Assembly (NCBI GenBank): GCA_035629175.1
Contig: DASPIL010000033.1
Coordinates: 1-64,000, forward strand
DNA: 64,000 nt
Direction of reading: 5' to 3'
Origin: Verrucomicrobiia bacterium
Lineage (GTDB): Bacteria > Verrucomicrobiota > Verrucomicrobiia > Limisphaerales > DASXHY01
The notes beneath the pieces were generated by a model. It worked only from the letters and a program-made list of their open reading frames with translations, searched no databases and was not told where the DNA came from. Made by a program: the position numbers and the translations under genes. Shown one piece after another: positions 59,040 to 64,000 of this stretch (positions within the stretch are counted from its first letter, which is position 1; every line of letters starts with the position of its first letter).

Positions 59040-59321
59040 GCCACTCCATTACTTCCTGCTTCACCTATCCGTGCCATCTGCGGTTAAAAGGATTTGCCGA
59101 GTTTGCCCACGGAGCCGCAGAAGAATCGAAAACCACGAAACACACTCATTACACGAAACCCGCAGGCAATTCGCGAAAATTGGCGCAATTCCCTAAACCC
59201 GTTCTGCCCTTCCCCATCCGTATTGATCCGCGTCGAGGGGGCGCAACCTCGGTATTTTTACCGCTTCTCAAATCCTTCATAACGTGGCTTAATGCGGCAT
59301 TCCCAAACGGCCTGCCCTGCC
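59040..59321. other. Non-coding stretch before the RHS gene
   Basis: No supported gene. It holds text typical of repeated intergenic sequence: CCGTGCCATCTGCGGTTAAAAGG near 59073 read in two parts, and AACCACGAAACACACTCATT with ACACGAAACCCGCAGGCAATTCGCG near 59132-59175, both containing periodic CACGAAA and AATTCGCG words. It presumably also carries the RHS promoter, which I could not locate. Confidence 0.5.
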
Positions 59322-62300
59322 ATGAACCTGTTAAAATCTTTCCGCGCTTCCCGCCTGGGTTTGATGCTGGTGCTCGCCCTGACCGCCCAATTGATTACGC
59401 CAGCAGCTCACGCGCATTATTGCGGACCGCCCGTGATTCGCTGCAAGCCGGGTGACGTTGTTACTTACTATATTGTTTCCGATCGCGCCGAGCAGGGGAT
59501 CAGCTTTTTCGGCGTGGTATCGCAGACACGTCCCGACGTTGCGCCCGTCGTGTTTTTCACCCCGACTGGGCGGATCATGGGAACGTTCGTCATCGAAGCG
59601 CGGGAGGTCGGCACCAACAGCATGATTCTTGGCTGGGATTTCCCGACACCGCCACCGGCCAGCGGCTTCTGCTTTGTTGAAGTGCGAGTCACAACGAATG
59701 AAACGACCTCCACATCAGGCAACTCGCCTGACTCCGCGTTTGCAGGCGATCCCGTGAACGCCTACACGGGCGAGTTGGTGATGCAGGAGGCGCCTGATCT
59801 ATGGCTCGGGGGACCGCTGCCGCTTCAGTTCTCGCGCTATTACGCTTCGCGCCTGCAAGCCGACTCGCTCGTGAATTCCCGAATTGGCAACAACTGGACG
59901 CACAACTTTGAGTGGTCCGCCATTCTTGGCCTAACGAACCAAGCACTTATCGTGTCGCCGCAGGGACTCGCTGTTCGATTTGATCGTGTGGGAACCAACT
60001 GGATGCTGCGCTCGCCGACGTTCATGCCGTTTCAATTGGTCGATAGTGGAACGAACGTGATCTTCGGAGATCCGCGCGCCAATCTGTCATACACATTCAG
60101 CACCAACGGGCTGTTGATGAGCGTCAGCGATGGGAAAGGGAACGCCCACAGCCTGACTTACACCGAGGAAAGATTGTTGAACCAGGTTTCGGATGGGCTG
60201 GGGCGATCGCTCACGTTCAGCTACGTGGGAGCGCAATTGTTGAACCGCGTTTCGGACGGCACCCGCGAGGTGCGTCTCGTCTTTGCGCAGTCGGGCAGCG
60301 ATTTCAATCTCCTGCGGATCACGAATGCACTCGGCGGCACGACTTTCCATACTTACGACAACAGCAAATCCATCCGTTCCCTTCTGACGTCGACCACCTT
60401 CCCAGCGGGTAATTTCGGCTACTCGCAGGTCTACGACGACCAGGGCCGGGTTGTGCAGCAGAGCCGCATGGGAACGAACATCACGCGTTTTAACTACAGT
60501 CCTGGAAATATCACCTATGTGACCAACGCGGCGGGCGGGGTGACGGTGTATTCCCATTCAGCGAATGGAGTGCTGCTGGCAATGAAGGATGCGGCGGGGA
60601 AGAGCTTGACGGTTCAGACAAACTCGCAGGGAAGGCGGGCAGCAATCATTGATCGCACGGGAGCTTCGGTCGGCGCTGCATTCCATCCTGCCTCTGGCCT
60701 GCCGGGCGCCTTCACCAACTCCGATGGATCCGTAACACAGTTCACCTATACAAATCGGATCGTGAACGGGATCACGTTCCATGAAGTGGCATCGGTGACT
60801 CTTCCCGGCGGGTCGACTCAGCGGTTTTCTTACGATGCGATGGGCAACCTGGCTGCGTTCCAGGATCCGGCGGGTCACGTTGCACGATTCGGTTACAATG
60901 CGCGCGGACAGCTGACCGCCGCAACCAACGCTGCAGGGGGAGTTACAACGCTCGTGTACAACGCGGATGGTACCATTGCATCGCGGACAGATCCCGTCCT
61001 TGGAACCATCACGTTCCATCATGACGCGCTGCGGCGTGTGACGAATGCGACCGCTGCGGATGGACGCGCGGTTCGAGTCGTGCTCGACGCTGCGGACCGG
61101 ATCCGGGCGATCACGGATGAACGGACGAACACGACCTGGTTTGCGTTTGATGCGAACGATCGTTTGATCGGGATCACGAATGCGGCGGGACATGTTGCCC
61201 GTTTTCAATACGACGCAGCTGACCGGCTGAATGAGGTTGTCGATCGCATGGAACGGCGGCTTGCCTATACTTATAATTCATTCGATCAGATATCCACTTT
61301 CACGAATCGCAATGGAAACGTCATGCAATTTGCGTGGGACGCGCGGCAGCGCTTGACCTCGATCGTGGACGCTGCAGGCAAGGCCCGCACCTTCGGCTCC
61401 GACGATGAAGACCTGGTGCGCAGTTTCACCGATGCGCTCGGCAACAGCATGGCAGTTGATCGCGATGCGGTTGGATTTGTGTCTGCGATAACGAACCAGC
61501 TTGGGCTGGTTTCCGTGTTGAACCGCGATGCACTGCACCGCGTGTTTCGCACGGTGGATCCGATGGGCCACATCGATCAATTTGGGCATGAGCCTCGCAG
61601 CTCGCTGACCAACGCAAACCGGTCAGCGCTTGGCCCCGCCACGGCTGTCTTCAATGCGCTTGGCATGATGGAACGACTGGTGGATCAGGGCGGGAGCCAG
61701 TGGCGCTTTGAGTATTCGAACATGGGACGGCTGTTACGTTCTGTCGATCCGTTGAATCGCACGAACAGTGTCAGCTACGACAGCCGCGGCAGGCCCGCGC
61801 GTGTTGCGTTTGCAGATGGTGCGTCCCAGACCAACAGCTTCGATCCTTCGGGTAATCTGACAAAGCTGGAGTTCAGTGGAGGGCCTGCCGCGGCATTCAG
61901 CTACGACGTCTTGCATCGTCTGACGAATGCCGCAGGTTTGGCACTGGCGTACGACCCTGAGGATCGCGTTACGAACACGCTAAGCAGCGGGATCCAGTTC
62001 GGTGCCGCGTTCGATTCAGGAGGGCGGCTGACCAATGTCACCTACAACAACGGAAGCTTTTCCGCTGTTTATTCGTACGATTCGAGGGATCGGCTCATCC
62101 AGGTTCGTGACACGCTGGGCAACGGCCAGGTGAACTTTTTCTACGACGACGGCGGACGCCTTACAAACGTCTTTCGCGCAAACGGCATCAATGGCATCTA
62201 CACGCACGACGCTGCTGGAAAGGTGACCCGCATTCGGGAGGGCAATTTGATCGATCTGCAATTCACCTATAGTGCGGCTGGATTGATGGTCGCATTGGCG

Positions 62301-63842
62301 TCTGAAACACCACTTTTCTCCGCCCCGGATGCACCCGAGACACGGGATTTCACCTTCGACGTTGCACATCAAGTCTCGGCAGCGGGTTACTCCTATGACG
62401 GCCGCGGGCGCATGACGGCGTCGCCTGGAAGAACGTATGGGTGGAACGCCGCGTCGCAACTCATCCGCGCTGGCGGTGTGACGAATGCCTTCAATGGAGT
62501 GGGAAACCTGCTGGCGCGGAGCACGTCGGCCGCGACGATCACGTATCACTACAACCATGCCATCCACCGTGTCCCGATCGTTGCGGAGCAGAACGCGGCG
62601 AACAGCGCGTTTCAACGCTACTACGTTTGGACGCCCGACGGACGGCTGTTGTATTCGATCGATGGTGCTGGAGGGAACAGCGTCACGTATTACCACTTTG
62701 ACCTGAACGGTTCGACCCTGGCTCTGAGTTCGGCTGCTGGGGCTCTCAGTGCCGCCTATGCCTACAGTCCTTACGGCTTGATTGTTGCGCAAAGCGGTGC
62801 AGCCGATCAGCCGTTCAGGTATGCCGGGCAGTATGGGGTGCGTTGGGATTCTGACGCGCAGTTGTATCACATGCGCGCACGGTTTTATGACCCGCTGACG
62901 GCGCGATTCCTTTCGCGCGATCCGTTGTGGCCGATGCTGAGCGACCCCCTGAGCCTCAATCCCTACGCCTACGCGGCGAACAATCCCCTGCAGTTCATTG
63001 ACCCTGCAGGGACGCGCAATGAGCGGCTCGCGGAAAGCGCAAATCCATTACAGGTCATTGGGCGCGATGACGTCAGCAAGGCGGGAATGGAGAACGTCTC
63101 TGATGTGCTGGCAGCGCTGCCGGCCTCAATCGGTGCCCTGTCGGCCGCGAGCAGTTTGAACCTTCGAGGGCTCGGCTCGGATCGGACGCTCGTGCTTTTG
63201 AATGGGGTTCGAAGTTCCCCGGCTGCAGACCTCAACAGCATACCGCTGGCGGCGGTGGATCGGGTGGAAGTGCTGAAGGATGGCGCGTCGAGCGTGTATG
63301 GATCGGATGCCGTCGCTGGAGCCGTGAACGTGATCACGAGGCGAACCGAAAACGAATTCGACTATCTCACTCTCAACGTCGGTGCTGAGTTCGAGCCGAT
63401 CCTTTCGACGACTGTGAACCACTGGGCTGATCAAGGCGCGGAGTTCTCGATTGTGCAGCCGATCAGGAGGACCGGACAGGTGAACCTGTTCCAGCTGTCT
63501 ACCGAATCCTTCATGGTTGGCATTTATGGGGCCCTTCTTCAAAGCGGACCGACCGACCTGCGCGGCAACAGCCAAACGCAGGATCAAATGAACTTCTCAC
63601 TGTGGATGGCGGGGTTTCCACCGATGCTGATGCCGCGCGGAGTGGCCTTTGTGAATGGGCAGCAGGTCAAACCGAAGCTCGCTGATCTCACTTACGGATT
63701 CTGGGTCCATTGGCATCTGTATAACGCGATGTATTCGTCTTCGAGGCAGAGGCGGCTCTTGTATTCCGAGCTCCTGGATAGTTTCCAATGGGGCGGCACG
63801 GGAGGATCGTGGTCCGATGTGACGGGAACGTATCGATATTAA
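59322..63842 (+). CDS. Secreted RHS/YD-repeat protein with C-terminal TonB-receptor plug domain
   Basis: From ATG 59322 the product is 1506 residues with a signal peptide (ASRLGLMLVLALTAQLITPAAHA). Near residue 145, DPVNAYTGELVMQEAPDLWL is the DUF6531 start of RHS proteins. Dozens of YD repeats follow (for example FSYDAMGNLAAFQDPAG, FQYDAADRLNEVVD, SYDSRGRPARV). The RHS core PFRYAGQYGVRWDSDAQLYHMRARFYDP lies near residue 1170 and ends at FIDPAG (about 1227). The C-terminal tip then reads DVSKAGMENVSDVLAALPAS, LNLRGLGSDRTLVLLNGVRSS, DLNSIPLAAVDRVEVLKDGASSVYGSDAVAGAVNVITRR, the plug of TonB-dependent receptors, plus about 160 residues of unknown type. No beta barrel follows. ATG 59292 is a less likely start. 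Confidence 0.9.
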   Translation: MNLLKSFRASRLGLMLVLALTAQLITPAAHAHYCGPPVIRCKPGDVVTYYIVSDRAEQGISFFGVVSQTRPDVAPVVFFTPTGRIMGTFVIEAREVGTNSMILGWDFPTPPPASGFCFVEVRVTTNETTSTSGNSPDSAFAGDPVNAYTGELVMQEAPDLWLGGPLPLQFSRYYASRLQADSLVNSRIGNNWTHNFEWSAILGLTNQALIVSPQGLAVRFDRVGTNWMLRSPTFMPFQLVDSGTNVIFGDPRANLSYTFSTNGLLMSVSDGKGNAHSLTYTEERLLNQVSDGLGRSLTFSYVGAQLLNRVSDGTREVRLVFAQSGSDFNLLRITNALGGTTFHTYDNSKSIRSLLTSTTFPAGNFGYSQVYDDQGRVVQQSRMGTNITRFNYSPGNITYVTNAAGGVTVYSHSANGVLLAMKDAAGKSLTVQTNSQGRRAAIIDRTGASVGAAFHPASGLPGAFTNSDGSVTQFTYTNRIVNGITFHEVASVTLPGGSTQRFSYDAMGNLAAFQDPAGHVARFGYNARGQLTAATNAAGGVTTLVYNADGTIASRTDPVLGTITFHHDALRRVTNATAADGRAVRVVLDAADRIRAITDERTNTTWFAFDANDRLIGITNAAGHVARFQYDAADRLNEVVDRMERRLAYTYNSFDQISTFTNRNGNVMQFAWDARQRLTSIVDAAGKARTFGSDDEDLVRSFTDALGNSMAVDRDAVGFVSAITNQLGLVSVLNRDALHRVFRTVDPMGHIDQFGHEPRSSLTNANRSALGPATAVFNALGMMERLVDQGGSQWRFEYSNMGRLLRSVDPLNRTNSVSYDSRGRPARVAFADGASQTNSFDPSGNLTKLEFSGGPAAAFSYDVLHRLTNAAGLALAYDPEDRVTNTLSSGIQFGAAFDSGGRLTNVTYNNGSFSAVYSYDSRDRLIQVRDTLGNGQVNFFYDDGGRLTNVFRANGINGIYTHDAAGKVTRIREGNLIDLQFTYSAAGLMVALASETPLFSAPDAPETRDFTFDVAHQVSAAGYSYDGRGRMTASPGRTYGWNAASQLIRAGGVTNAFNGVGNLLARSTSAATITYHYNHAIHRVPIVAEQNAANSAFQRYYVWTPDGRLLYSIDGAGGNSVTYYHFDLNGSTLALSSAAGALSAAYAYSPYGLIVAQSGAADQPFRYAGQYGVRWDSDAQLYHMRARFYDPLTARFLSRDPLWPMLSDPLSLNPYAYAANNPLQFIDPAGTRNERLAESANPLQVIGRDDVSKAGMENVSDVLAALPASIGALSAASSLNLRGLGSDRTLVLLNGVRSSPAADLNSIPLAAVDRVEVLKDGASSVYGSDAVAGAVNVITRRTENEFDYLTLNVGAEFEPILSTTVNHWADQGAEFSIVQPIRRTGQVNLFQLSTESFMVGIYGALLQSGPTDLRGNSQTQDQMNFSLWMAGFPPMLMPRGVAFVNGQQVKPKLADLTYGFWVHWHLYNAMYSSSRQRRLLYSELLDSFQWGGTGGSWSDVTGTYRY

Positions 63843-63847
63843 CTCCG

Positions 63848-64000
63848 ATGAAAAATCGAATTTCCATCTTCGCGATTTTCTGCGGGCTCCTGGCGGTCAT
63901 GACCGTCGCAGCCGCGGAGTTTGCCACCTTTACCTACGACACCGCCGGTCGTCTGATTGCGATCAATCACGGATCAGGAAAAGGCCGGACCTATCAGTAT
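63848..64000 (+). CDS. Second secreted YD-repeat protein, 5' part only
   Basis: Starts 5 nt after the RHS-plug stop with ATG 63848 and runs off the window. The 51 visible residues are a signal peptide (RISIFAIFCGLLAVMTVAAA) followed at once by a YD repeat, FATFTYDTAGRLIAINHGSG. It should be translated with the upstream gene and is probably a shorter RHS/YD partner or an orphan tip; its remaining length is not seen. Confidence 0.8.
   Translation, partial: MKNRISIFAIFCGLLAVMTVAAAEFATFTYDTAGRLIAINHGSGKGRTYQY

Follow-up and report, generated by a model that had tools for sequence, protein, structure and literature searches.

A TonB-dependent receptor plug without its barrel at the C-terminal tip of an RHS protein

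Plug domains are known inside the barrels of TonB-dependent receptors, and the locus analysed here raises the question of whether such a plug can be part of an RHS protein, where it was derived from and what it might do there. The window, i.e., the whole stretch of 64,000 nucleotides that was analysed, corresponds to bases 1-64000 of a contig of 74337 bases and carries on its plus strand an RHS protein gene (59292..63842, 1516 aa from the first ATG), which as directly read from the sequence holds the RHS core and the plug in one single uninterrupted frame. The true start of the gene is likely the ATG at 59322, immediately 5' of a probable Sec signal peptide (MNLLKSFRASRLGLMLVLALTAQLITPAAHA, 59322..59414, plus strand; judged by eye from the sequence), and given this signal the protein is likely located outside the cytoplasm. 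Following the signal peptide, about 110 residues remain without domain assignment by Pfam, and no Pfam match to a T6SS N-terminal (PAAR or clade) region was obtained. The RHS part of the protein was found to comprise DUF6531 (PF20148, residues 152-230, 59745..59981, plus strand; Pfam, 51 bits), 12 stretches of RHS_repeat (PF05593; Pfam, 208 bits) and Rhs_assc_core (TIGR03696, residues 1158-1240, 62763..63011, plus strand), the C-terminal end of which is the DPAG motif and which with 71.3 bits (NCBIfam) scores above the cut-off of 32.5 bits. With YD/RHS repeats and the RHS-associated core both being present, the protein was assigned to the RHS/YD-repeat proteins. Outside the window, further very large RHS frames of 4914 and 4115 aa were observed in the same genome (G000:C20 ~52.7-56.6 kb, G000:C71 ~16.9-20.3 kb).

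The tip following the DPAG motif (residue 1240) is 276 aa in length and consists of the plug, followed by a tail. The plug (PF07715, residues 1247-1344, 63030..63323, plus strand) was matched by Pfam with 73.2 bits (E 2.9e-20) over profile positions 3-107 of 107 and is, judged by profile, complete. The proposal of the preliminary description, an RHS protein with a TonB plug at its tip, was thereby confirmed, as PF07715, PF05593 and TIGR03696 all match within one protein. When searched against solved structures (phmmer), the tip aligned at 4.5e-14 with the plug of BtuB (chain residues 24-135). When the plug was modelled by itself with AlphaFold, the modest model obtained (pLDDT 59) retrieved BtuB first and then other TonB-dependent receptors; with pLDDT 39, the model of the whole tip was weaker still. 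The nearest TonB-dependent receptors were identified as proteins of ~930-1000 aa from the same order, BtuB being the nearest among solved structures. Likeness to these receptors extends to 22 of the 27 conserved columns (81%), i.e., columns which are at least 85% conserved among the 39 receptor plugs compared. The RHS plug differs from them in that it resides at the C-terminus of another protein, without barrel, without the front segment (the TonB-box side) and with shorter loops: it begins at most ~10 residues after DPAG, the G which is invariant in the TGS segment preceding receptor plugs is missing, and as compared to the nearest receptors its first apical loop is by alignment shortened by ~13 and its second by 5-10 residues, the second being short in some other receptors as well. 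Probably the TonB-box side was lost along with part of the apical loops, while most scaffold residues were kept. TonB boxes are bound by TonB and not by plugs; no such box, which is a degenerate motif, was found in front of the plug, and as the RHS plug lacks the box side, the suggestion that a free plug might compete for TonB boxes does not hold.

Behind the plug, a 163-aa tail follows (63351..63839, plus strand), in which no match to a 22-strand barrel was obtained and after which an unrelated gene begins; both the missing barrel and the approximately 160 residues noted earlier hence stand. Homologous tails were found in three further genomes (G285, G286 and G068), all having in common the pattern PR....VNG..V..K and a near-terminal GG(S/T)GG. 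As G068 has this tail in an RHS protein without plug, the tail is not a receptor leftover. No Pfam toxin was matched in tip or tail; an undescribed toxin might conceivably still reside in the tail.

The genome being a draft in 108 contigs, it has to be asked whether misassembly joined an RHS gene to one for a receptor, which is, however, extremely improbable. Base composition is smooth across the junction, and of the eight other plugs in the same genome (encoded by frames 646-967 aa long) the closest is 33% identical to the RHS plug. Furthermore, the search for other proteins with RHS core and plug revealed the same core-plug-tail order in G285 and G286, two assemblies from another family of the order, which are homologous across junction and tail and identical to the window protein by 54% over residues 12-1512 and 53% over residues 25-1512, respectively. 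Since two other assemblies show this order, misassembly is practically excluded, and since two other genomes have the same joining, it is on the strength of this comparison real, old and kept. The two loci (L131, L132; CAMAUY010000051.1, CAMDJH010000266.1) reside in genomes whose kinship is that of the window's order; their assembly records are titled Akkermansia muciniphila, titles which do not fit this kinship and look wrong.

The fusion is rare (3/320 genomes of the order). Using the tail alone as query, three long RHS frames were found in the 320 genomes (G285, G286, G068), and among 387 other genomes sampled from the phylum no RHS-plug fusion was found, close RHS cores carrying other tips there. 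A contig search with the tip alone returned no match, and one with the three-tip alignment returned G285 and G286 as the only fusions. Matches in G212 and G141 reaching into plug coordinates were rejected as unrelated tips, as were the tips in five further RHS genomes of the phylum; those weak tail matches (E 0.002-0.04) that were inspected lay in or beside unrelated genes. A text search of open-access papers found no description of an RHS-plug fusion, consistent with what had been supposed at the outset, and an RHS tip formed by a TonB plug without barrel is hence apparently an undescribed variant of RHS proteins.

Concerning its origin, the RHS plugs fall among those receptors of the order which are ~930-1000 aa long; their mutual score is 93 bits, as compared to 75-77 bits to any receptor plug. 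All three lack the front segment and have shortened apical loops. In a tree of trimmed plugs which included more family receptors, the three RHS plugs unite at 92/84, just below the threshold which the tree tool itself sets for a firm branch, while in an earlier tree with longer flanks they were not united (26% of bootstraps). Because the three plugs group together among receptors of the order, the simplest reading is that the plug was probably captured once, long ago, from a receptor of its own order. Core, plug and tail of the window protein are 58.6%, 49.5% and 29.5% identical to those of G285, respectively, the tail hence being the least conserved part, with synonymous sites being saturated; provided that the fusion has one origin, the plug is by this measure under constraint. 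Between the plugs of G285 and G286, 14 changes were counted (8 nonsynonymous, 6 synonymous), from which dN/dS cannot separate constraint from neutrality.

An alternative would be tip turnover, meaning that the plug is a foreign fragment which the RHS 3' end acquired via recombination and which is tolerated although it has no function itself. Displacement is known to occur at RHS C-termini (Jackson et al. 2009, as cited in PMC11461821), and the tip is indeed exchangeable, as homologues in G045, G112, G113, G050, G068 and G284 have other, unrelated tips. G068 (L062, G068:C439; RHS frame on the minus strand) possesses the same core (57%) and tail with another insert at the plug site, which opens with a 28-residue secretin-like strand. 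This strand scored 17.6 bits with a profile of 10 secretins versus at most 5.8 in 5000 shuffles, the test having been made after the motif was noticed; neither Pfam nor PDB gave a match to secretins, and two home-made secretin profiles, which miss or hardly sample the strand, did not match. In the RHS-core tree, the placement of G068 had low support (59/39). In G284 (L093, G284:C105), from the same genus as G285, the core is broken by frame changes and stops, and its insert differs from the plug and ends with LLGSGGSF, resembling the tail end. Against turnover, the one probable origin across two families and the fact that, at saturated synonymous divergence, the frame is intact and 81% of the conserved columns in the plug are retained render it distinctly unlikely that the plug is simply tolerated.

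As the plugless homologue has the same tail, the tail is the constant and the plug the inserted part. This, together with most conserved plug columns being kept while apical loops and TonB-box side were lost, is in line with the idea that the plug never leaves but serves as a structural bung by which the RHS cage is closed or filled, with the cage in place of the barrel and the tail as the acting part. Such a bung is nevertheless not required, given that G068 has the same tail without plug, and the tail is the part conserved least; this idea is considered unlikely.

As read from the comparisons above, a predicted Sec-signal RHS shell protein carries a receptor plug between the DPAG shell end and a clade-specific tail; everything in the mechanism beyond this anatomy we infer. 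Polymorphic-tip RHS/YD-repeat proteins (Rhs, WapA; TIGR03696) share with it DUF6531, the YD repeats, the core ending with DPAG and the tip varying between homologues, while here the tip is a receptor plug plus a tail of no known kind, with neither a recognised toxin nor a tip-specific immunity gene seen next door. For FhuA, plug and barrel supplied separately were reportedly found to yield a working receptor. The C-terminal cargo of RHS proteins resides within a β-cage, in one solved case unfolded, and is set free via aspartyl self-cleavage at the motif DP(I/L)GXXGGX5YX8D(P/S)XG(L/W) (PMC11461821). With the encapsulated cargo of the T6SS effector Tse15 (PMC11461821), the RHS-plug protein has in common the shell core, both Asp residues of the cleavage region (RDPLW, IDPAG) and a cargo-sized tip; it differs by its Sec-type signal in place of a T6SS N-terminus, by not being a known toxin and by an incomplete cleavage motif, as GG is missing and T, not L/W, follows DPAG.

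The reading preferred over the cage bung, put forward tentatively and itself rather doubtful, assumes that the RHS-carried plug is cargo which docks into and stops a receptor barrel. The tip would be held in the β-cage, as in other RHS proteins, whereby the cage would stand in for the barrel; it might serve as such because an isolated plug is unfolded outside a barrel, that of FepA behaving as unfolded (PMC11658791). Once released, the tip would dock from outside into a receptor barrel that stands open on a neighbouring cell and form a stopper which TonB cannot pull, hence possibly blocking the receptor. Neither a delivery system for the protein nor a receptor or plugless barrel adjoining the RHS-plug loci was found, and both results count against this reading, as does the incomplete cleavage motif. 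Alternatively, the plug may be a displayed binding module, for ligand or contact, in which the fold is re-used and has nothing to do with receptor barrels. Ligand binding by the isolated FepA plug persists, weakly, at about 5 uM (PMC11658791), and the likely extracytoplasmic location would suit display, but it is the loops facing the ligand that have become shorter, making this alternative quite improbable.

Going beyond the plug, it was considered that in this order RHS proteins might be carriers of gating elements from outer-membrane channels, i.e., the receptor plug in three RHS proteins and the secretin-like strand in a fourth; these pieces would either be cargo directed at outer-membrane barrels or have been borrowed in order to mimic them. 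This idea is very unlikely; if true, it would define a class of RHS tips which stop up channels and do not cut molecules. Independently of this idea, finding a plug conserved on a secreted RHS shell protein extends RHS tips beyond the toxins which they are usually taken to be, and offers a naturally occurring case for testing if plugs are able to fold, travel or act when separated from their barrel.

The gene following the RHS gene, starting 5 nt past its stop, encodes a small secreted protein (63848 to contig position 64420, 63848..64000 in the window; L005 5848-6420; plus strand) with signal peptide, a single YD/RHS repeat and a TSP3-like motif; it is no barrel protein. The same kind of gene follows homologous RHS genes in G285, G286, G068, G284, G141, G050 and G113, whose tips differ. 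Were it a candidate for immunity, it would hence not be tip-specific, being common to members with different tips; because it follows RHS genes of the clade whatever the tip, it goes with the shell, and within the preferred mechanism it would serve in shell assembly or anchoring. Beyond this gene pair, the neighbours differ among the window, G285 and G068. The small protein also resembles the Amuc_1099 pilus-like family weakly, with a match below threshold.
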